Assembly (NCBI RefSeq): GCF_012844225.1
Contig: NZ_JABAGQ010000001.1
Span: 496,001-560,000, forward strand
Direction of reading: 5' to 3'
DNA from: Rhodococcus sp. 105337
GTDB taxonomy: Bacteria; Actinomycetota; Actinomycetes; Mycobacteriales; Mycobacteriaceae
Length of the DNA: 64,000 bases
Below, one piece after another: positions 1,891 through 11,220 of the stretch. The notes beneath the pieces were generated by a model. It ran no database searches and was not told the origin of the DNA. It saw nothing but the letters and a program-made list of their open reading frames with translations. Each line of letters starts with the position of its first letter. Positions within the stretch are counted from its first letter, which is position 1. The position numbers and the translations under genes are program-made.

Positions 1891-2826
1891 ATGATTCTCA
1901 TGAATGAGAATGGAATTTCTAGCGACGGTTCGTCACTGCTGGTGATGAGTCAGCACGCCTTCTCGTCCGACTTCGGCCTGCTCTCACGGCTCGTCACGAA
2001 AGAACGCGCGGTGATGCGTTCGGTCCTGACCGACAAACTGCGCTCCGATGCGGGCTCGGCATCGCTCGGAGTGCTGACGACGCTGGTCGACATCGTCACC
2101 TCGAGTCCGGCGCTTGCCGCCTGCGGGCAGGACTGGGTCGCCACCCAGGACCTCACCCTCCACGCCACCGGCCCGCTGACGGAAGGTCCCGTCGTCATCG
2201 ACGCACAGCTCGTGCGCATCGGCAAGAAGATGATCCACGTGTCGGCAGACGTGTACGACGCACGCGGCACAACCGATCTCGACGAGCTCATCGCCGCGCT
2301 CGATACCGGCGGTGAGGGCGGTCCGGTGCTCGCGGCCCGCGCGCTGGTCACGTTCGCGCGCTTGCCGCGCGCCGCCGCGCCGAGGGCGGACGAATACACG
2401 CCGGGCGAATGGGTCGGTGTGGACCGTGAGTACCCGGTCGTGCCGGTCGACGGGACGATCTACTCCCGACTCGGCATGCGCATCGTCGACCCGGACGAAG
2501 GGGTTCTCGAGCTCGACCGAACGCCCTTCGTGGCCAACATGATCGGCACCATCCAGGGCGGTGCGCAAGCCCTCCTCGCAGAGTCGGCCGCACACGCGAT
2601 GCGGCCCGATCTGGTGGCGACCGACATTCAGATGCACTTCCTGTCCCAGGTGCGCGTCGGTCCGGCACGGTCGTACGGCACGGTGGTCCGCGACGGGGCC
2701 GACCATTCGGTGATCAGCGTCCGTCTCGTCGATGCCGGCGCAGACGACCAGCTGCTCGCCCTGACCACGGTGACCCTGCAGCGTCCGCCGGCGAGGGCGG
2801 CCGACTCGGCTCAGCCCGAACTGTGA
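1891..2826 (+). CDS. double-hotdog thioesterase-like protein
   Basis: The 311-residue product reads as two hotdog folds in tandem. The first covers about 45-175, with LGVLTTLVDIVTSSPAL in the position of the central helix. The second covers about 195-305, with IQGGAQALLAESAAHAM in the equivalent place. This matches the PaaI/acyl-CoA thioesterase-like superfamily, which hydrolyses or binds acyl-CoA; no specific substrate can be named. The chosen ATG follows GGGGAGATGG with about 10 nt spacing, but an 18-bp palindrome lies over these first codons. A downstream start at GTG 1942 or ATG 1945 (MSQHAF) is a real alternative and would leave the palindrome in the promoter. The 3' end overlaps the convergent gene by 16 nt. 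Confidence 0.72.
   Translation: MILMNENGISSDGSSLLVMSQHAFSSDFGLLSRLVTKERAVMRSVLTDKLRSDAGSASLGVLTTLVDIVTSSPALAACGQDWVATQDLTLHATGPLTEGPVVIDAQLVRIGKKMIHVSADVYDARGTTDLDELIAALDTGGEGGPVLAARALVTFARLPRAAAPRADEYTPGEWVGVDREYPVVPVDGTIYSRLGMRIVDPDEGVLELDRTPFVANMIGTIQGGAQALLAESAAHAMRPDLVATDIQMHFLSQVRVGPARSYGTVVRDGADHSVISVRLVDAGADDQLLALTTVTLQRPPARAADSAQPEL
1894..1911. promoter_or_regulatory. 18-bp perfect palindrome, possible repressor operator
   Basis: ATTCTCATGAATGAGAAT has 8-bp arms around a GA centre. It is AT-rich in a GC-rich region and lies in the short divergent space between the K+ channel and thioesterase genes, over the first codons of the latter as annotated. The form suits a dimeric repressor site; the regulator is unknown. 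Confidence 0.4.
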
Positions 2827-3095
2827 GTGGCCGCGAAGACGATGAACACCACGAACAGCGCACCCGTTCCGAGCACCGTGCCCACGACGGTCTCGACGTA
2901 GTTCGTCGCGAGGCCCTTCTCGATCCTCAGAAGTCCGATCCAACCGCAGACCACGGCGAGCAGGCCGGCGGGGATGGACACGAAGTCGCCGACGACAGGA
3001 ACGAACGCAGTCAGCGCGGCAACGATGCCGGCGATCAGCGCAGTGTTTCCCAGTCCGTTGCGATCGCGGAACTCGGTGGGCGGTGTCGCCGACAT
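2811..3095 (-). CDS. small DUF4190-like membrane protein
   Basis: The 94-residue product starts at the ATG at 3095, with GGGAGTAGGC just upstream as a plausible ribosome site. A short polar head (MSATPPTEFRDRNG) is followed by two or three hydrophobic segments (about 17-33, 38-52, 70-90) with a polar RIEKGLATNYVE turn between the last two. This pattern resembles DUF4190 and other small actinobacterial membrane proteins of unknown function. It converges on the thioesterase gene, overlapping its last 16 nt. No partner or function can be inferred. Confidence 0.7.
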   Translation of the reverse strand: MSATPPTEFRDRNGLGNTALIAGIVAALTAFVPVVGDFVSIPAGLLAVVCGWIGLLRIEKGLATNYVETVVGTVLGTGALFVVFIVFAATHSSG

Positions 3096-3542
3096 GCCTA
3101 CTCCCAAGAGTTCGGCGGATGGGTATCGGTACATCCTGCACCCTCGACGGGGGTCTGTCTCGGAGGACGACGCCCGTGCTCGACGTGGGGCGCCGTCCTC
3201 TTTCGGCACTCGACCGACCGGTGAGGGTCGCACACACGCCGTTTCTCCGCCGCCGAGTCCTCGATTCACCCCCGGGTCACCTGCATTTCGCCGGCGGCGT
3301 GCCCGAAGGATGTATAGCGTGTTTCGGAGTTGCTTCTGGCAACACGCCGCACGCGCCTCCTCCCCTCCGGCGCTGCGGTCGGCCCCGTCGGCCCCTCCCC
3401 TCGAATTCGCCGACGGGGTCGCCGCCGCTCCAGGCACGCCGGACCGGCACCTCCGTCCCGTACGTCGGCACCGGCGTTTGACCCGCGGGCACGGACACGG
3501 TCGACTAGCGGTGGCCCCTCACACGAACCCGGAGACCCCGCG
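3096..3542. other. 447-bp non-coding interval with several hairpins
   Basis: No open frame here has coding character. The interval has a strong hairpin at 3163-3200 (arms GAGGACG-A-CGCCC and GGGCG-C-CGTCCTC, 12-nt loop, then TTT) and the C-rich double-hairpin element at 3317-3420. The upstream part also serves as leader for the minus-strand membrane protein at 2811-3095. Confidence 0.5.
3317..3420 (+). ncRNA. candidate structured RNA A with CCTCCCC motifs
   Basis: The 5' hairpin is GCGTGTT (3317-3323) pairing with AACACGC (3341-3347). A linker carries TCCTCCCC at 3358-3365, which may itself sit in a small hairpin (GCGCC 3353-3357 with GGCGC 3369-3373). The 3' hairpin has a 12-bp stem (3381-3392 with 3409-3420) and a 16-nt loop containing CCTCCCC. 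The G82:T419 pair in this stem is a wobble only if the plus strand is transcribed. The element at 11111-11220 has the same stem and loop lengths and compensating changes. C-rich-loop small RNAs (6C type) are known in actinobacteria, but identity with that family is not shown. A TAGCGT -10-like box at 3315-3320 is weak. Confidence 0.35.
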
Positions 3543-4217
3543 ATGACCGATGCTCTCGACGCTGCCGCCCGCCTTTTCGTCAACGACGGGCTTTCCGAAG
3601 ACGAAATCGCTCGTCAGGCCGCGTTGTACGGTCCGCTCGCCGACGATGTCCGCGCACTGATCCCGCTTGCCGTGCAGAGCCGAGCCGATGACGACGACGT
3701 GCGACGGGCCCGGGAGCACCTGGCAGCCGCGAGGGAGTTGCTCGGGCGCCGGAAGGAGGACCACCCCTTCGGTACCCGGTTCAACGACGCCGGCAACTTC
3801 CGGGTGTGGGGCAACGCCGCCATGGGACTGCGGAACGCGATCGCGCCACTGCCCCGCATCAACCAGGATCCCGACGGTCGCGTGTGGGCCGACTTCCATC
3901 TGCATGTCGGCTTCGAAGGGCCCGCGGGACATACACACGGCGGAGTCTCGGCGCTGATCCTGGACCAGCTGCTCGGTGACGCGGCCCGGGTGGGCGGCTC
4001 ACCCGGAATGACGGGCACGCTCACGCTGCGCTATCGCAGACCCACCCCTCTCGGCGATCTGCACGGGGAAGCAAAACTCGACCGGATCGAGGGGCGTAAG
4101 GGATTCGTCACCGGACACATCGCGGGGCCGCACGGGATCTGCGTCGAAGCGAAGGGCATCTTCATCAGGCCCAACTGGCCTGACGGCAACGGCCGCGACC
4201 GGCACCGCGCGGGATAA
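3543..4217 (+). CDS. PaaI-family thioesterase
   Basis: The 224-residue protein has an N-terminal helical extension of about 95 residues rich in Glu, Asp and Arg, followed by a single hotdog domain (about 105-218). Within it, GPAGHTHGGVSALILDQLLG (about 128-147) has the His-rich HGG plus Asp arrangement of PaaI/YbgC-like acyl-CoA thioesterases, and LTLRYRRPTPLGDL (about 160-173) fits the following strand. The predicted role is hydrolysis of acyl-CoA thioesters in the cytoplasm. The ATG directly follows GACCCCGCG with no clear Shine-Dalgarno sequence. It is a single-gene unit after a long non-coding leader. Confidence 0.8.
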   Translation: MTDALDAAARLFVNDGLSEDEIARQAALYGPLADDVRALIPLAVQSRADDDDVRRAREHLAAARELLGRRKEDHPFGTRFNDAGNFRVWGNAAMGLRNAIAPLPRINQDPDGRVWADFHLHVGFEGPAGHTHGGVSALILDQLLGDAARVGGSPGMTGTLTLRYRRPTPLGDLHGEAKLDRIEGRKGFVTGHIAGPHGICVEAKGIFIRPNWPDGNGRDRHRAG

Positions 4218-4555
4218 CAGCACGCCGCGCCGCGTGCCGGCCGTCGAGACCGCCGGTCGTGCCGGGAGCGACACGGCCGTGCGCCGTATTCACCCATCCT
4301 GGGCGTGACCGGGCCGAACAGTTCCGTAATACCTGTTCCGTGACGATCGTTGCTTCCGGGACAGAACGACCCTTACCACGTCGCACGACGCGTGTCTCGT
4401 CGAGCACGGAAAAATCTTTTGTCTGATTCTCCAAAAGCGAGAAGTCGGTTCCCCTCCTGTGCAAGCATCATGCCCGACACCGGCGAAGTGGGGGCTTCGG
4501 ACGCCGGGTCACCCGTTCACAGCGCTGGCCGAACGGCCCGGTGAAGGAGGCAGAC
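4218..4555. other. 338-bp non-coding interval upstream of the ABC uptake operon
   Basis: No convincing small gene is seen. The last 150 bases are less GC-rich and must contain the promoter of the ABC operon. An inverted repeat CTTTTG(N10)CAAAAG at 4416-4437 is the only notable symmetry and could be a regulator site. Confidence 0.4.
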
Positions 4556-5941
4556 GTGAAAGCACAACGGACGCTCGTCGCACTGGCGGCGATCGCCGTG
4601 CTCGCCGCAGGATGCAGCGGGCGCAGCGAAAGTGGTGGGTCCGAAGACGACGAATCGCGCGGCGGTACCGCGCAATCCGCTTCGGGCGACTTCGGCGACC
4701 TCAGCGGTCTCTGCGGGCCGGGCGACGCCACGACTGCGACCGCGCAGGGCGTGACCGCCGACGAGATCCGAGTCGGCGTCCTGTCCGATGTCGGCTTCAC
4801 CAAGAACCCCGAATTCGTCGATGCCGCACATGTGTTCACCTCATGGTGCAACGCCGCCGGCGGCATCAACGGCCGCACGCTCGTAGCCGAAACGCGCGAC
4901 GCGAAACTGATGGAAGTCCGGCAACGGATGATCGAAGCCTGCCGCGAGGACTTCGCCCTCGTCGGCGGCGGCGCTGCGCTCGACGGTCTCGGCGTCAAGG
5001 AACGGTTGTCGTGCCTGCTGCCCAGCTACCCCGCCCAGGTCTCGCAGACGCAGGCAGTGGGCGCCGATCTCGAGATCAGCGCCTCCCCCAGCCGGGTTCC
5101 GGGCTACGACCCCTACTACGGCTTCCGCGAATGGCTCATCACCGAGAAGTACCCGGAGTCCGCGGGTTCGGTGGGAATCATCAACGGTGATTCGCCTGTC
5201 ACCCGCGACCTCGGGCAACAAGCCGTCGACAGCATCACCGCAGCAGGTGGCACCCTCACCTACAACGACCTCTACCCCGCGATGGGCGTCGCCGACTGGA
5301 CCCCCTATGCACAGTCCATCAAGAGCAAAAACGTTCGCGGACTGGTCTTCTACGGTGACTTCAAGCAACTCGCCAAGCTCGAAGAAGTGCTCACGGGGAT
5401 GAACTACAAGCTCGACTGGATCGACGCCAACAACAACGCATACAACGATTCGTTCATCGAACTTCTCGGGAAGTCGGCCGAATTCCAGAACAACTACGTC
5501 GATCTGGGCGGCAGCGCTCCCTTGAGCAGCGCCGACGACGAGCCCGCCGTCCAGCAGGTCCTCGACATGTACGCCGAATACGCGCCGGATGCCGAGATCA
5601 CCTTCCCGGCGCTACGGGCGATGTCCGCGTGGGCGCTGTTCGCGAAAGCCGCGACGAGTTGCGGCGACGACCTCACCCGCTCCTGCGTCTACGAGGCTGC
5701 GCTGCAGGAAGACTCATGGACCGGCGGCGGCCTCCACGCCGCCGGCGACCTCACGAATCCTGTTCCCCCGCAACCGTGTTTCAACGTCGAGGCAGCCACA
5801 CCCGACGGTTGGGTCACGGCCGACTTCGGAGCCGACAACGGGCTCTACCGATGCAACACCCCGCCGTTCGCGTACCCCGGTGACTACGGCGTGCCGATGA
5901 CACTCGCCGACGTCGGCAAGAGCATGGGCGACATCCAGTAA
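4556..5941 (+). CDS. branched-chain-type ABC transporter substrate-binding lipoprotein
   Basis: The GTG at 4556 is preceded by AAGGAGG with 5-nt spacing, which makes it better than the in-frame GTG at 4541. The 461-residue product starts with a lipoprotein signal (KAQRTLVALAAIAVLAAGC), predicting lipidation on the Cys in LAAGC. An acidic Ser/Gly linker precedes a periplasmic-binding-protein type I fold (Peripla_BP_6 type), with ITADEIRVGVLSD-like first strand sequence around residue 62. Such receptors bind amino acids, amides or small acids outside the membrane; the ligand here is unknown. It is the first gene of a tightly packed operon: its stop codon TAA shares a base with the permease ATG. 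Confidence 0.88.
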   Translation: MKAQRTLVALAAIAVLAAGCSGRSESGGSEDDESRGGTAQSASGDFGDLSGLCGPGDATTATAQGVTADEIRVGVLSDVGFTKNPEFVDAAHVFTSWCNAAGGINGRTLVAETRDAKLMEVRQRMIEACREDFALVGGGAALDGLGVKERLSCLLPSYPAQVSQTQAVGADLEISASPSRVPGYDPYYGFREWLITEKYPESAGSVGIINGDSPVTRDLGQQAVDSITAAGGTLTYNDLYPAMGVADWTPYAQSIKSKNVRGLVFYGDFKQLAKLEEVLTGMNYKLDWIDANNNAYNDSFIELLGKSAEFQNNYVDLGGSAPLSSADDEPAVQQVLDMYAEYAPDAEITFPALRAMSAWALFAKAATSCGDDLTRSCVYEAALQEDSWTGGGLHAAGDLTNPVPPQPCFNVEAATPDGWVTADFGADNGLYRCNTPPFAYPGDYGVPMTLADVGKSMGDIQ

Positions 5942-8064
5942 TGGAACAGTTCGTCACCTTCGGGATCGTCGGCCTCAGCACCGCTGCGATCTACGCGATC
6001 ATCAGCAGCGGGCTGGTGGTGACCTACACGACCACCGGGGTGTTCAACTTCGCGCACGGCGCCACCGGAATGATGGCCGCGTTCGCGTACTGGCAACTCA
6101 GCATCGGCTGGGGCTGGCCGGTATGGCTGTCGGTGATCACGGTGCTGTTCGTGCTGGCACCGGCGTTCGGGCTACTGGTCGAGCACCTGATGCGGCCCGT
6201 ACAGCGTCTCGGGGAAGCCGAGAGGCTCGTCATGACAATCGCGATGCTCAGCGGCCTGATCGCCGTCGCCCGGTGGATCTGGGATCCCAACAAGTCCCGT
6301 TCGCTCCCGACGTTCTTCGCCGAGAAGGACTCCTTCCACATCGGCGCGGCCACGGTCTCCTGGCATCAGGCCCTGACGATGGTCGTCGCGGTCGCAGTGG
6401 CGCTCGGGCTCCGGTTGCTGATGTTCAACACCCGCACGGGCGCGGAAATGCGGGCGACGGTGGACGACCGGGCCCTCGTCGGGCTCACCGGCGCCGACCC
6501 GGTGCGCGCCAACCGCGTCGCCTGGATCCTGGGCACCACCTTGGCAGCCCTCGGCGGGATCCTCATCGCGCCGATGGTGGCGCTCGATGCCACCCAGTTG
6601 TCGCTGTTGATCGTCAGTGCTTATGCCGCAGCGATATTCGGGCGGCTGAAGAGCTTGCCGATGACCTTCGTCGGCGCGATCGTGATCGGCTGCATGGAGG
6701 CCTACCTTGCCGGTTATCTGCCGCAGAACGAGTACCTCCCGGGGTTGCGGCTGGCCGCACCCGCGATCGTGTTGCTGCTCGCGCTGCTGCTTTTCCCGCA
6801 CGGAAGGTTGCGCGGGCGAGACCGTCACCTGAGCCCGGTTCCCTTGCCGTCGGTGCGCGGAACGTTCGCGTTCGCGGGCGTCATCGTGGCGTTCGGGCTC
6901 CTCCTCGCCACCGTGCTCGGCGCGGGCGATCTCGTCACCTACGGACAGATCTTCGCCTTCGGTGTCATCGCGCTGTCGTTCGTCCCGCTCGTCGGGTACG
7001 CCGGCCAGATCTCGCTGTGCCAGCTCAGCATGGCCGGCATCGGTGCGATCGCGTGCGCACACCTCGGCGGCGACGGACAGTGGTGGGCGCTGATCGCAGC
7101 GGTGGTGGTCGCGGGCGTCGCAGGAGCCGTCGTCGCGGTACCCGCCCTCCGGCTGTCGGGGGTGTACCTGGCACTGGGCACGGCCGCGATCGCCGTCGTG
7201 CTCGACCGGTGGATCTTCTCGCTGCCGTCGTTCGAACTCTTCGGCATCGACATCGCGCTGTTCGACCAGGGGTCGGTAGAACTCGTCGGCCCGTCCCTGT
7301 TCGGGATGCAGGTCGACACCCCCGCCGAACTGACGGTGTTCTCGGCGGTCTGCCTCGCGCTGGTCACCGCGGGCATCGCGGCACTGCGCCGGGGCAGGCT
7401 CGGCAGGCGCTTGATCGCTTTGCGCGACAGCGAAGCCGCATACGCAACGCTCGGCGGCAGCCTGCTTCTGACGAAGATCGTCGTCTTCGCGATTTCCGCG
7501 GGGATCGCCGGTCTCGGCGGTGCACTGTACGGGATGCAACTGCAATCCGTCGCGGCCGACCAGTTCAATTTCGTTGCCGGACTGTCGATCTTCCTCATCG
7601 CGGTCGTAGGCGGCCTCGGGGTGGTGGGTAACGGACTGTTCACCGGGTCGATGCTCGCCGGACCGTTCAACGCGATCGTGGCACTGTGGCCCGCCGCGCA
7701 GAACCTCGTTCAGGTCGCACCGGCCGCCGCGGGTCTCGCGTACGGGTCCGGCGCGGTGGACGACGGTGTGGTCCCGTCGCTGCGGCGGCGCTGGGAACCG
7801 GTTTTCCACGATGCACTCGTGATCGCGGCCGTCGTCACCTGGGTGGTGTTGCTCTGGCTACTGCGACTGATCGACGTGATCAACGGATACGTGCTGATCG
7901 CCGGGATCGTCGCCGGAGCGCTGGCCGCACGGAGCTGGGCTGCCGCCCGCCACAGGCCGGTTCCGCACTCCGAGGAGATCCCCGTGGAGTGGTGGGGCGT
8001 GAAACGTCCCTGGACTGCGGAAGACGAGGAGGTGCTCGATCGTGCCGTCACAACTCGCAGTTGA
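5941..8064 (+). CDS. fused LivH-LivM-type ABC permease
   Basis: The 707-residue protein joins both membrane subunits of a branched-chain amino acid-type importer. Residues about 5-290 are LivH-like (IYAIISSGLVVTYTTTGVFNFAHGA near the N-terminus). Residues about 310-615 are LivM-like, with FGVIALSFVPLVGYAGQISLC-like and AGLGGALYG motifs. A further C-terminal part with two hydrophobic segments (about 620-660) and a charged tail is not part of the usual permease core. In most bacteria these are two genes; actinobacterial fusions are known. The gene starts at the ATG overlapping the receptor stop and ends 23 nt inside the first ATPase gene, indicating coupled translation. Confidence 0.9.
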   Translation: MEQFVTFGIVGLSTAAIYAIISSGLVVTYTTTGVFNFAHGATGMMAAFAYWQLSIGWGWPVWLSVITVLFVLAPAFGLLVEHLMRPVQRLGEAERLVMTIAMLSGLIAVARWIWDPNKSRSLPTFFAEKDSFHIGAATVSWHQALTMVVAVAVALGLRLLMFNTRTGAEMRATVDDRALVGLTGADPVRANRVAWILGTTLAALGGILIAPMVALDATQLSLLIVSAYAAAIFGRLKSLPMTFVGAIVIGCMEAYLAGYLPQNEYLPGLRLAAPAIVLLLALLLFPHGRLRGRDRHLSPVPLPSVRGTFAFAGVIVAFGLLLATVLGAGDLVTYGQIFAFGVIALSFVPLVGYAGQISLCQLSMAGIGAIACAHLGGDGQWWALIAAVVVAGVAGAVVAVPALRLSGVYLALGTAAIAVVLDRWIFSLPSFELFGIDIALFDQGSVELVGPSLFGMQVDTPAELTVFSAVCLALVTAGIAALRRGRLGRRLIALRDSEAAYATLGGSLLLTKIVVFAISAGIAGLGGALYGMQLQSVAADQFNFVAGLSIFLIAVVGGLGVVGNGLFTGSMLAGPFNAIVALWPAAQNLVQVAPAAAGLAYGSGAVDDGVVPSLRRRWEPVFHDALVIAAVVTWVVLLWLLRLIDVINGYVLIAGIVAGALAARSWAAARHRPVPHSEEIPVEWWGVKRPWTAEDEEVLDRAVTTRS

Positions 8065-8755
8065 CGACATCTCGGTCGCGTTCGGCGGCCACCGCGCGCT
8101 CGACGGGGTCGCGCTGACCGCGGAATGCGGAGAGGTGACCGGACTGATCGGCCCCAACGGTGCGGGCAAGAGCACTCTGTTCGACGTGGTCTCCGGACTC
8201 CGGAAACCCCTCTCTGGCACCGTGTCCCTCAACGGCCGGGACGTGACACGCGCCGGTCCGGCTCGCCGCGCACGACACGGGCTCGCCCGTACATTTCAAC
8301 GGCTCGAACTGTTCGGCCGGCTCAGCGTGCGCGACAACCTGCGCGTAGCAGCAGAATTGGGACCCGAGCGACGACACGCTGGGCGCGTCGCCGACGAGAT
8401 ACTCGCCCGACTGGGTATCGAACATCTCGCCGACACCACCGCCGACTCACTGTCCACCGGCATGGGACGCCTCGTCGAGGTGGCGCGGGCACTTGCGGTG
8501 CGTCCGTCCCTCATCCTCCTCGACGAGCCGGCTGCAGGCCAGGACGTGCAGGAGACCGAACTGTTCGCCGCGCTCCTGCGCGCGCTCGCCGCCGACGGGA
8601 CCGCCGTCCTGCTGGTCGAGCACGACATGGAACTCGTCATGAGCGTGTGCGACACGGTGTACGTGCTCGATCTCGGGAAGATCATCGCGTCCGGGCCACC
8701 GGGTGTCATCCGCAGCGACGAGACCGTGCTCGCAGCCTATCTGGGGAAGTCATGA
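8042..8755 (+). CDS. LivG-type ABC transporter ATP-binding protein
   Basis: The 237-residue protein starts with GTG inside the end of the permease gene. Walker A is GPNGAGKST (about 37-45), the ABC signature is the degenerate LSTGMGRLVE (about 137-146), Walker B is LILLDEP (about 158-164), and the switch His is in LLVEHDMELV. The usual signature is LSGGQ or LSTG-type in LivG relatives, so activity is expected. It should pair with the LivF-type ATPase encoded next to power the fused permease. The stop codon overlaps the next start in ATGA. Confidence 0.9.
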   Translation: MPSQLAVDDISVAFGGHRALDGVALTAECGEVTGLIGPNGAGKSTLFDVVSGLRKPLSGTVSLNGRDVTRAGPARRARHGLARTFQRLELFGRLSVRDNLRVAAELGPERRHAGRVADEILARLGIEHLADTTADSLSTGMGRLVEVARALAVRPSLILLDEPAAGQDVQETELFAALLRALAADGTAVLLVEHDMELVMSVCDTVYVLDLGKIIASGPPGVIRSDETVLAAYLGKS

Positions 8756-9456
8756 GCGCCATACTCGAAATGCGCGGTGTCCGAGCCGCATACGACGCCA
8801 TCACCGTTCTTCACGGAATCGACCTGCAGGTCGCTGCGGGTCGGGTGGTGGCGTTGCTCGGCCCCAACGGAGCCGGCAAGACCACCACCCTGCGGGTCGC
8901 GGCCGGCGTTCATCCCGTCTCGTCCGGGCAGCTACTACTCGGCGGCCGTGACGCCACGGGAGTCGCGCCCCGGGATCTGGCACGGGCGGGAGTGTGCCTC
9001 ATCCCCGAAGGCCGAGGGGTGTTCCCCAACATGTCGGTTCGGGACAACCTCCTGATGATGACCTTCGCCGGTCGTCCACGAGCCGAGGTCGAGGAGATCG
9101 CGTTCTCGCGCTTTCCCATTCTGGCCGAGCGAGCGGCGCAGACCGCGGGAACACTGTCCGGCGGCGAACAGCAGATGCTGGCGCTCGCCCGCGGTCTCGC
9201 CACCGACCCCGCCGTGCTCCTGCTCGACGAGCTGTCCATGGGGCTGGCACCGATGATCGTTGCCCAGCTCTACGACCACGTCTCGGAGATCGCCCGGAGC
9301 GGAGTGGCCGTGCTCGTCGTCGAGCAGTTCGCCGACGCGGTACTCGATTTCGCCGACCACGCCGCGGTGCTGGTCCGCGGGCGGATCCAGCAACAGGGAC
9401 ATCCGGAAGACCTACGCACCGAACTCGCATCCCTCTACCTAGGAAGTGCGCCATGA
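8752..9456 (+). CDS. LivF-type ABC transporter ATP-binding protein
   Basis: The 234-residue protein has Walker A GPNGAGKTT (about 37-45), signature LSGGEQQMLALARGL (about 138-152), Walker B AVLLLDELSMGL (about 157-168) and the LivF-typical IPEGRGVFPNMSV (about 86-98). It is the second nucleotide-binding subunit of the importer. Its ATG overlaps the LivG-type stop (ATGA), and its own stop overlaps the next gene's ATG. All five genes from 4556 to 9806 therefore read as one transcription unit. Confidence 0.92.
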   Translation: MSAILEMRGVRAAYDAITVLHGIDLQVAAGRVVALLGPNGAGKTTTLRVAAGVHPVSSGQLLLGGRDATGVAPRDLARAGVCLIPEGRGVFPNMSVRDNLLMMTFAGRPRAEVEEIAFSRFPILAERAAQTAGTLSGGEQQMLALARGLATDPAVLLLDELSMGLAPMIVAQLYDHVSEIARSGVAVLVVEQFADAVLDFADHAAVLVRGRIQQQGHPEDLRTELASLYLGSAP

Positions 9457-9806
9457 CCTCGACCGAAGACCGCGCCGACAGGTTCACCCGCGAACTCGCC
9501 CAACTGAAGATCCCGGATCCGGCGGCCGGGCGACACGACCTCTGGCTGCGCCTCGGCCTCATCCTGATGGTGGCAGGTCCCGTGCTCGGCGTGGCGTCGT
9601 ACTTCCTGTCGCACAACACCTCCGACGCTCTCGTGCAACGCGACGCGATCGTGCTGGCGATCGTCGGCGTTGCGGTGGCCGTGGTGGGCTCCGCTGTGTT
9701 CCTGCGGTACTCGCTCACCGGCTTTCTCCGGTTCTGGATGGCCCGCCAAGCCTTCGATCTGGCGGTTCTCTCCGACGGTCTGCCCCACCGGGACGGATCG
9801 TCCTAG
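9453..9806 (+). CDS. small two-TM membrane protein of the ABC operon
   Basis: The 117-residue product starts at an ATG overlapping the LivF stop and preceded by AGGAAG. It has an N-terminal helical, charged segment (about 1-27), two membrane spans (about 29-50 and 63-86) and a cytoplasmic tail ending PHRDGSS. No known domain is recognised. The coupling to the importer genes suggests an accessory role, such as assembly or stability of the transporter, but this is inferred only from position. Confidence 0.75.
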   Translation: MTSTEDRADRFTRELAQLKIPDPAAGRHDLWLRLGLILMVAGPVLGVASYFLSHNTSDALVQRDAIVLAIVGVAVAVVGSAVFLRYSLTGFLRFWMARQAFDLAVLSDGLPHRDGSS

Positions 9807-9941
9807 ACGACACGGTTCGCCGTAACGACTCGAGGTCGCGACCGCGTCTTCGTCACGACCACGACCACATCTCCGGTAGCGGGATTCCACTGCCGGTCGA
9901 ACAGGGTGACGGAAAACGTCCGGCACCCGGAGAGGACTCAT

Positions 9942-10466
9942 ATGCGCGTCTCGATCACCCGTCGTGCGCTCGCCGTCTGCGGTTCGATGGCCGTCGCCGC
10001 CGCAGTCGTCACAGGCTGCAGCGATTCCAGCGAAGACACGTCCGGCGACGACACCTCCACCACGTCCAGCGTCGCCACCACTACCACTGCAACTGCGGAA
10101 GCAGCCTCGGCCGACACTGCCACCACGGAGGCGGTGACCGCGTCCTATGTCACCTTCTTCGACGGGACGACCCCGGCGGCCACGCGCGCCGGCGTGGTGG
10201 AGAACGGCGAGAACTTCCTTCCCGCCCTCGAGGGCATGGCCACCGACCCCCAGGCCTCCGCGACGGCAGCAACCGTCGAGGGTGTGACGGTCGCGGATGA
10301 CGGCACCGCCACGGTCTCGTGGACGTTGCTCATGAACGGTGCCCCCGTACTTCCCGATCAGTCCGGCGAGGCGATCGAGGAGGATGGCACGTGGAAGGTC
10401 AGTGCCGCGACGTTCTGCGCGCTGCTGGCCATCCAGGGAGACGGCAGCGCCGTACCGGGCTGCTGA
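9942..10466 (+). CDS. MTB12-like secreted lipoprotein
   Basis: The 174-residue product begins with an Arg-rich lipoprotein signal ending VVTGC (Cys at about 26). A 40-residue Ser/Thr/Ala/Asp linker follows, then a compact domain (about 65-174) with YVTFFDGTTPAATRAGVVEN and GTWKVSAATFCALLAIQG. This resembles from memory the C-terminal domain of the mycobacterial low-molecular-weight antigen MTB12 (CFP-2), a small exported protein of unknown function. A Cys in SAATFC and the terminal Cys could form a disulfide. The ATG follows GGAGAGGA with suitable spacing. It is a single-gene unit after the ABC operon. Confidence 0.75.
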   Translation: MRVSITRRALAVCGSMAVAAAVVTGCSDSSEDTSGDDTSTTSSVATTTTATAEAASADTATTEAVTASYVTFFDGTTPAATRAGVVENGENFLPALEGMATDPQASATAATVEGVTVADDGTATVSWTLLMNGAPVLPDQSGEAIEEDGTWKVSAATFCALLAIQGDGSAVPGC

Positions 10467-10613
10467 CGCAGCGAATCACCGTCGCTGCCCGGACGACTCG
10501 GCGGTCGGCGCCATTCCGGTTGCTGCCGGCATGGCACCGACACGCCGTCGTTGCATCGGCAGATGCCCTCCCCAGTACAGTGGGGCACCGCCGCCGGCAA
10601 CGAGAGGGAGCCC

Positions 10614-11009
10614 ATGCAGCACGCCCTGTTCTACTCGCTCGTCGCCATGTGCTCGCTGTTCGCGGCATCGACATGGTGCCTGGCGAGGCCGCACGCCCTC
10701 TCGAGCCTTGCCGCTGCCGTAGCCGCCGCACTCTGGTTCCTCATGAACGGAATGCTGGAAGGCCGGGTGCTGTACTCCGTCACCCCCGACCACGGGCTCA
10801 CCGAAGCGGACCTGCTTTCCGCGGCGGCACTCGGCATTTCGGCCTGGGGGTTCCGGGCGACCGCCAGCAACCGGCGCAGACGCGACCGCCGGGCACGACC
10901 GGCGCCCCGCAGTATCCACGTCGACGAGACACGCGCGATGCCCCGGCAGATCCTGCCCGGGCAGCACGACGTGAGCGTACCCACGCGCGGACCTCGGAAT
11001 CAGCACTAG
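10614..11009 (+). CDS. small membrane protein, unknown function
   Basis: The ATG at 10614 follows GAGAGGGAGCCC. The 131-residue product has an N-terminal hydrophobic segment (about 5-20), a second (about 27-45) ending near FLMNGMLEGRVLYSV, and a weak third (about 60-75). A long basic tail (SNRRRRDRRARP and onward) is probably cytoplasmic. The pattern resembles small actinobacterial DUF2631-like or similar membrane proteins, but no family is confidently recognised. It stands alone, 147 nt after the MTB12-like gene, and is followed by a weak terminator-like hairpin. Confidence 0.6.
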   Translation: MQHALFYSLVAMCSLFAASTWCLARPHALSSLAAAVAAALWFLMNGMLEGRVLYSVTPDHGLTEADLLSAAALGISAWGFRATASNRRRRDRRARPAPRSIHVDETRAMPRQILPGQHDVSVPTRGPRNQH

Positions 11010-11043
11010 GCGCGGCTGCCGACCCTGCGATCCACATCCCCGC

Positions 11044-11063
11044 AACCGATTTGGGTATCGGTT
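11044..11063 (+). terminator. short terminator-like hairpin
   Basis: AACCGAT and ATCGGTT form a 7-bp stem with a TTGGGT loop, followed by TTCGTCTC. It lies 35 nt after the membrane-protein stop. The T-tract is poor, so termination strength is doubtful. Confidence 0.3.
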
Positions 11064-11099
11064 TCGTCTCGATGCTGGACCGGGTGCGCGCACCTGACC

Positions 11100-11105
11100 T
11101 AAACT
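11100..11105 (+). promoter_or_regulatory. -10 element for candidate RNA B
   Basis: TAAACT fits the actinobacterial TANNNT -10 consensus. TGGACC (11076-11081) is a 4/6 match to TTGACA at 18-nt spacing. A start near 11111 would begin exactly at the first hairpin of the candidate RNA. Confidence 0.4.
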
Positions 11106-11110
11106 CCCCG

Positions 11111-11220
11111 ACGGCCACATTCAGGTGGCCGTGTCTCCAGAAGTCCTCCCCGACACACATGGAGATACAGCGCAGGGCCCCGCCGGCTCCTCCCCCTCAT
11201 TTCGCTGGCGGGGCTTCCCT
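11111..11220 (+). ncRNA. candidate structured RNA B with CCTCCCC motifs
   Basis: The first hairpin is ACGGCCAC (11111-11118) pairing with GTGGCCGT (11125-11132) over a 6-nt loop. A linker carries TCCTCCCC at 11144-11151. The second hairpin has a 12-bp stem (11176-11187 with 11204-11215) and a 16-nt loop with CCTCCCCC. Two G:T wobbles in this stem (11185 with 11206 and 11176 with 11215) support plus-strand transcription, because they would be C:A mismatches on the other strand. The arrangement matches element A at 3317-3420. CCUCCCC could pair with purine-rich ribosome-binding sites, as C-rich-loop small RNAs do; this is inference. Confidence 0.42.

Follow-up and report, generated by a model that had tools for sequence, protein, structure and literature searches.

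Two C-rich stem-loops, here called A and B, lie in a 64,000-nucleotide (nt) stretch of the genome of Rhodococcus sp. 105337 (contig NZ_JABAGQ010000001.1, positions 496,001 to 560,000; the window, in genome G000), and they raise the question of whether they are copies of one RNA family and, if so, what such RNAs would do. The reading that we prefer, with a probability of about two in three, is that A and B are related genes for trans-acting small RNAs, the loops of which would cover G-rich ribosome sites. It is drawn from the conservation and covariation of the predicted structures and from analogy with characterized small RNAs of other bacteria.

Structure of the two elements

The initial annotation had described two stems of 12 base pairs (bp) with 16-nt loops at 3381-3420 and 11176-11215, and both were found as described. 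In A, GGCCCCGTCGGC (3381-3392) pairs with GCCGACGGGGTC (3409-3420) around the loop CCCTCCCCTCGAATTC, while in B GGCCCCGCCGGC (11176-11187) pairs with GCTGGCGGGGCT (11204-11215) around TCCTCCCCCTCATTTC. The compensatory exchanges were also as reported: at the fifth pair from the loop, one element has T:A and the other C:G, and G:C and G:T are exchanged at pairs 3, 11 and 12. A degenerate pattern of the stem-loop gave two matches in the 64-kilobase (kb) window and none in 100 shuffles.

The folding of the plus strand, compared with shuffled sequences, gave z-scores of -4.68 for A and -5.85 for B, and that of the minus strand was weaker (-2.84 and -2.03, respectively). Changes from G-C to G-U, such as those at B pair 96-118 (nine GC and seven GU), pair solely as plus-strand RNA and therefore fit a plus-strand transcript, in agreement with the earlier remark that the wobbles would work in RNA of this strand alone.

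The elements had been interpreted as double hairpins joined by a CCTCCCC linker. The stems and loops of that description were right, and the linker had to be reassigned, since in folds restricted to the transcript it forms the loop of an additional, middle hairpin, which brings the number of hairpins to three. Of 16 transcripts folded as single sequences (six A, six B and four of a third type, C, described below), all formed hairpin 3 and 15 formed the middle hairpin as expected, the exception being the C transcript of genome G008. Each locus is predicted to yield a three-hairpin RNA of ~95-110 nt, and hairpin 3 of A and B is terminator-like (Table 1). C-rich loops are found in hairpins 2 and 3 of all types, and also in hairpin 1 of type C and of six of the nine A loci.

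Occurrence in Rhodococcus and a third type

When 41 relatives were searched at the DNA level, matches to A appeared in 13 genomes, three of which lie outside the genus and were judged to be chance, and matches to B in 14 genomes, all within the genus. Two covariance models were then built: R1 from 17 B-type sequences (14 B and three second copies) and R2 from nine A and six C sequences. The outside-genus DNA matches (L009, L011 and L012) and the terminator-like L013/L019 of G007 were excluded from the alignments. The covariance-model search, which had been suggested in the initial annotation, was run on a genus sample of 18 Rhodococcus genomes, and each model matched 15 of them. Sorted by hand, the matches of the two models placed type B in 15 genomes, type A in nine and type C in six; G003, G010 and G015 had no R1 or R2 match at E up to 0.1, and type C was not found in the window's genome. 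On the training sequences of the window, R2 scored RNA A at 73.6 bits (E 9.8e-9) and R1 scored RNA B at 119.7 bits (E 1.8e-21).

The models also recognized each other's loci. R1 recovered A and C loci absent from its training, among them those of G012 (C, E 1.3e-10; A, E 4.4e-7; these E-values are rough), and R2 matched B loci (3.8e-4 for B of G016 and 9.4e-7 for the second B copy of G005). This bears on whether A and B are paralogues or two RNAs that have converged in form. Convergence would be compatible with the weak cross-matches within the window's own genome (E 0.0015 for A with R1 and 0.0079 for B with R2) and with the different first hairpins of A and B. The cross-matches are, however, stronger in sister genomes, the hairpin 3 sequences are very alike, and in G004, G008 and G012 a single gene block contains both A and B. 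We therefore consider convergence unlikely, while giving it more weight than any other alternative discussed below, and treat A and B as related genes. With homologues in 15 of 18 genus genomes, covariation and no Rfam match at gathering score, the earlier suggestion of a possibly new RNA family present at least twice was borne out; a lack of homologous stems in relatives and conservation without covariation were both looked for, and neither was found. A second B copy was observed at a separate locus in G001 (L054), G005 (L052) and G011 (L053), and its hairpin 1 and promoter differ.

A scan of genome_contigs (84,980 species) with the stem-loop pattern returned 11 stretches in six records, all of Rhodococcus, in a listing that is incomplete because it misses some genus genomes known to carry the pattern (e.g., G004). 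The viral contigs gave no match to this pattern, and a plasmid search with a single query each of types C and B was negative as well. Among 41 genomes of the family, R1 was clear in the window's genome and in G013 and weak in two others. One of the weak matches, L125 (G437, outside the genus; E 0.029), folds as a plain perfect hairpin. The other, L126 (G429:C1:991324-991362; E 0.092), belongs to another genus of the family and is a strong GC hairpin with the loop CTCCCCCCT; it may represent either a terminator or a distantly related C-rich-loop RNA, so that similar elements beyond Rhodococcus are possible. Over 397 genomes of the order, R2 matched the window's genome alone at E <=0.01, which is weak evidence of absence, given nine candidates per genome and strict filters; G013, with E 0.0139 in the genus search by R2, lies above that cut-off.

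Covariation and loop conservation

Covariation was evaluated in two alignments, one of 15 A and C sequences (nine A and six C) and one of 16 distinct B sequences, with 500 shuffles each; the B locus of G009 (L051) was left out of the alignments. Cells with double changes numbered 20 in A + C against 7.5 in shuffled alignments, and 19 in B against 4.6, and neither count was reached in any of the 500 shuffles, a result that is not to be read as a probability because the sequences are related. Paired cells made up 94.6% in A + C (90.4 shuffled) and 94.6% in B (91.6% shuffled). The covariation score was 0.191 in A + C, compared with 0.117 in shuffles and at most 0.082 when the structure was slid along the alignment, and 0.193 in B, compared with 0.135 and at most 0.101, respectively. 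Double changes affected five of 13 pairs of hairpin 3 in A + C and two of 12 in B, as well as three of six pairs of A/C hairpin 2, with one cell each. A conserved secondary structure with covariation is thus present at the level of the whole structures, not of each helix singly. The loops behave differently from the stems: the loop columns of A/C hairpin 2 read CCTCCCC in 15/15 sequences while the stems vary, and the B hairpin 2 loop, CUCCCC, deviates at a single base in a single row out of 17.

These data also speak to the simpler possibility that hairpin 3 alone matters, the elements serving upstream genes as intrinsic terminators and their C-rich loops being a product of chance or composition. 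Hairpin 3 is indeed terminator-like and the best-paired part of the structure, and the plain hairpin of L125 would be in line with such a view. Terminators would, however, leave the double changes in B hairpin 1 (4/8 pairs) and A/C hairpin 2 (3/6), the near-invariant hairpin 2 loops and the conserved -10-like boxes without explanation, and the C-rich-loop pattern is limited to Rhodococcus in the collection scanned. We regard this possibility as very improbable.

Comparison with known RNA families

No Rfam family reached its gathering score on either element, and the RNAs are apparently uncatalogued. The comparison with 6C (RF01066), to which the initial annotation had pointed, was negative: neither A nor B was matched by 6C, even with E-values of up to 10 allowed (cut-off 47 bits), and the 6C gene of this genome is a separate one (G000:C4:125649-125724, 77.4 bits). 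A and B resemble 6C in being actinobacterial and in having C-rich loops. They were nonetheless rejected as members for the above reasons, and their three hairpins with mixed CUCC loops differ from the two loops with strings of C of 6C/B11 (PMC10470900). In M. abscessus, the C-rich loops of B11 repress by pairing with ribosome sites (PMC10470900).

The closest RNA in layout is alpha-r14/NfeR1 of Sinorhizobium meliloti. It has three hairpins with differing stems, each presenting an unpaired CCUCCUCCC anti-Shine-Dalgarno motif, and it silences through these three redundant motifs; NfeR1 is Hfq-independent (PMC10746234). SmelA075 is a comparable model from rhizobia (PMC3927594). The Rhodococcus RNAs have three hairpins in single folds, and the loops of their hairpins 2 and 3 are CUCCUCCCC or CUCCCC; hairpin 1 is C-rich in type C and in six of nine A loci, not in B or in the window's A. 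They differ from alpha-r14, a family known from alphaproteobacteria, in the sequence of the loops. The alpha-r14 model (RF02344) scored B at 17.0 bits (E 0.54), below its gathering score of 58.8, and gave no listing for A at E up to 10. CcsR1 (RF02791), which is of alphaproteobacterial origin and has the CCUCCUCCC motif by name, matched A weakly (12.6 bits, E 1.9, against a gathering score of 65.3). The low-score Rfam matches to gut-2, ar14, CcsR1, BLV_package and others, all under their cut-offs, were treated as non-members. Judging from these likenesses and differences, we place A and B in a new RNA family, with a mode of action that is probably that of alpha-r14 and 6C. The Rhodococcus small-RNA literature searched, including the available parts of PMC10986025 and PMC10386958, yielded no description of such RNAs; a paper on novel small RNAs of Rhodococcus sp. 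P14 might list one.

Promoter regions and possible regulators

Inspection by eye revealed -10-like boxes 7-8 nt 5' of hairpin 1 in both A and B (Table 1), with TAnnnT at this place in 9/9 A promoters. The -35-like TGGAC of B is missing from the promoters of G007, G009 and G013. All nine A loci have a TCACC...TCAYC repeat, read by eye, with a period of 12 in eight loci and of 11 in the window. The PHO box consists of direct repeat units of 11 nt of the GTTCACC type (PMC4415409; see also PMC6754071). Control of A by a PHO box/RegX3, considered because of the sequence TTCACCC...TCACCC, was dropped, as the period is 12 and not 11 in eight of the nine loci; the 11-nt pattern occurs in one of nine, that of the window, which does not place A in the Pho regulon. 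Upstream of B, CCGAT-N6-ATCGG (11046-11061) precedes CTGGAC (11075-11080) and is a possible regulator site; related GTATCG...TGGAC blocks lie upstream of most other B loci.

Type C has a different upstream region. The consensus box of DosR is TTSGGGACTWWAGTCCCSAA (PMC2275270), and a DosR-like palindrome with the degenerate core GGGACTWWRGKCCY was present in 6/6 C loci and in none of 200 shuffles, beginning ~55 nt 5' of the stretch taken as the transcript. The strict core GGGACTWWAGTCCC was found in two of the six, the scoring being on the core of the 20-base consensus. No clear -35 box was seen by eye in the C promoters, which would fit an activated promoter. Read from the sequence, the palindrome suggests that type C of the sister species responds to DosR, so that one paralogue may answer hypoxia or nitric oxide. 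MTS1338/DrrS of M. tuberculosis is under DosR control. Its likeness to the RNAs described here lies in the DosR link suggested for type C alone, which is not found in G000, and is not based on sequence. Since the promoters of A, B and C differ, the three types probably respond to different signals.

Proposed mode of action

We propose that A and B would be transcribed from the plus strand as three-hairpin RNAs in which hairpin 3 doubles as the terminator. The C-rich loops CUCCCC and CUCCUCCCC, which resemble the anti-Shine-Dalgarno sequence of the 16S RNA, would be exposed and complementary to G-rich Shine-Dalgarno (SD) sites. By pairing with mRNAs at ribosome sites they would reduce translation, as is reported for mycobacterial B11 (6C) and rhizobial NfeR1. 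Repeated similar loops might also serve to bind protein, for example as a sponge for a C-rich-RNA-binding protein, and not mRNA. The loops match the SD complement as do those of B11 and NfeR1, which argues for pairing with mRNA, and we rate protein binding as quite improbable.

Several results weigh against small RNAs acting in this way. At the level of transcription, a scan with the sigma-70 consensus gave no promoter in the A or B region, a terminator scan limited to loops of 3-8 gave no terminator at hairpin 3 of either element, and the T tracts 3' of hairpin 3 are weak. As to structure, in the lowest-energy fold of a wider A stretch (3310-3432) the middle hairpin is absent, and hairpins 1 and 3 are longer in its place. 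Hairpin 1 has no C-rich loop in B or in the window's A, where the loop is UUCUG. Individual helices are also unevenly supported: A/C hairpin 1 is invariant save one pair and hence without covariation support, A/C hairpin 2 pairs in only 71-86% of cells of the MAFFT alignment, and the outer stem of B hairpin 2 is 87.2% paired with one-sided changes and zero double changes, again without covariation support. Further pair types in B showed no excess (14 against 15.9 shuffled). Finally, the target pattern AGGGGAGGA-N3-9-RTG was near background, with 6, 4 and 7 matches in G000, G016 and G004, compared with 3, 3 and 4 when the pattern was reversed; the six G000 matches include RNA A itself, read on the opposite strand.

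Among the starts read, a TetR-like gene (named by eye) has a site of this pattern both in G000 and in its near sister G016. The same pattern led to an inverted pair in G004, L137/L139 (G004:C1:4696421-4696470), where the two strands each carry AGGGGAGGATATGTG in a stretch of 50 bases.

A broader proposal, which we put forward tentatively and consider less likely than not, is that Rhodococcus possesses a multi-paralogue set, of its own, of anti-Shine-Dalgarno RNAs with three loops, in convergence with the rhizobial alpha-r14. Each paralogue would be placed under a different stress regulator, one of them DosR, so that hypoxia and other stresses would mute the same strong-SD messages through interchangeable loops. 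If true, this would apparently be an independent invention of the alpha-r14 design. To our knowledge, few base-pairing small RNAs have been defined in actinobacteria outside mycobacteria, and a family with triple anti-Shine-Dalgarno loops and a DosR-marked type would offer, in bacteria of industrial and environmental interest, small RNAs that are directly open to testing.

Gene neighbourhood

A gene for a PaaI-like thioesterase lies directly 3' of A in the window and at the eight other A loci (tblastn), its distance from A being ~120 nt in the window. This constant arrangement is what would be expected if A were a cis-acting 5' leader of the thioesterase, with hairpin 3 as attenuator. B and C have the same layout, yet the genes that follow them do not fit such a role: the coding-like frames that follow B are plus-strand frames in the window, G016 and G007 but minus-strand frames in G004 and G011, and a convergent frame lies 3' of 4/5 C loci examined, so that neither type looks like a leader. 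In addition, G011 has the thioesterase, the hypothetical gene and B, with no A detected, and a TTTGAC-N18-TCGACT-like sequence seen by eye between A and the thioesterase suggests that this gene may have its own promoter. A leader or attenuator is accordingly judged improbable, and A is better regarded, together with B, as a candidate small-RNA gene.

B comes after a short hypothetical gene, which ends at 11009 in the window, and the same order was observed in G008, G004, G011, G012 and G016. The distance between A and B is similar to that of the window in G016 and merely ~2.5 kb in G004 and G008. The region between them in the window (4541-9456) contains a block resembling a branched-chain amino-acid-type ABC transporter (by eye).

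Table 1. Positions of the putative RNAs, their hairpins and neighbouring features (window coordinates unless a genome and contig are given; R1 and R2 are the covariance models).
Feature	Position	Strand	Basis or remark
RNA A, putative three-hairpin small RNA	3326..3421	+	Ends estimated; R2 match G000:C1:499323-499425, single-sequence fold
A hairpin 1, GTTGC-TTCTG-GCAAC	3329..3343	+	GTTG/CAAC pairing retained and invariant in 15/15 A + C sequences
A hairpin 2, 11 pairs and one bulge, loop TCCTCCCCTCC (earlier taken as linker)	3346..3379	+	Fold
A hairpin 3, terminator-like, loop CCCTCCCCTCGAATTC	3380..3421	+	Fold; 100% of cells paired (A + C)
RNA B, putative three-hairpin small RNA	11110..11216	+	Ends estimated; R1 match G000:C1:507101-507226, folds
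B hairpin 1, GGCCAC/GTGGCC	11113..11130	+	Double changes in 4/8 aligned pairs, 16 distinct sequences
B hairpin 2, inner GUC-CUCCCC-GAC at 11143-11154	11131..11168	+	Fold; inner stem invariant in 16/16
B hairpin 3, terminator-like, loop TCCTCCCCCTCATTTC	11175..11216	+	99.5% of cells paired
Direct repeat TCACC-N6-TCACC upstream of RNA A	3266..3281	+	By eye; possible regulator site
-10-like box TAGCGT of RNA A	3315..3320	+	By eye; TAGCGT in 7/9 A loci, TAACGT in G014, TACCGT in G012
-35-like CTGGAC of RNA B	11075..11080	+	By eye; 19 nt before -10 box; TGGAC in 15/18 B promoters
-10-like box TAAACT of RNA B	11100..11105	+	By eye; TAnnnT at same place in 18/18 B promoters
Leftward frame adjoining A	2811-3098	leftward	No Pfam match
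PaaI-like 4HBT thioesterase gene downstream of A	3543..4217	+	Pfam PF03061, 28.1 bits
Short-element copies of G007	L063 G007:C231:16244; L102/L019 G007:C182:62083; G007:C231:17291		

Other C-rich elements in the genus

Another candidate three-hairpin RNA, with CCCCCC-type loops, was observed in G009 (L065, G009:C43:66896-67021, minus strand) and G013 (L089, G013:C1:40081-40194, plus strand). In both genomes it lies <5 kb from B and has ACTCGCGAGT upstream, and R2 matched it weakly (E 0.014-0.03). The sole 6C match of each of these two genomes is located away from L065/L089. Two contigs of G007 carry, between them, three copies of a shorter element that has CCCC and CCCCCC loops (Table 1).

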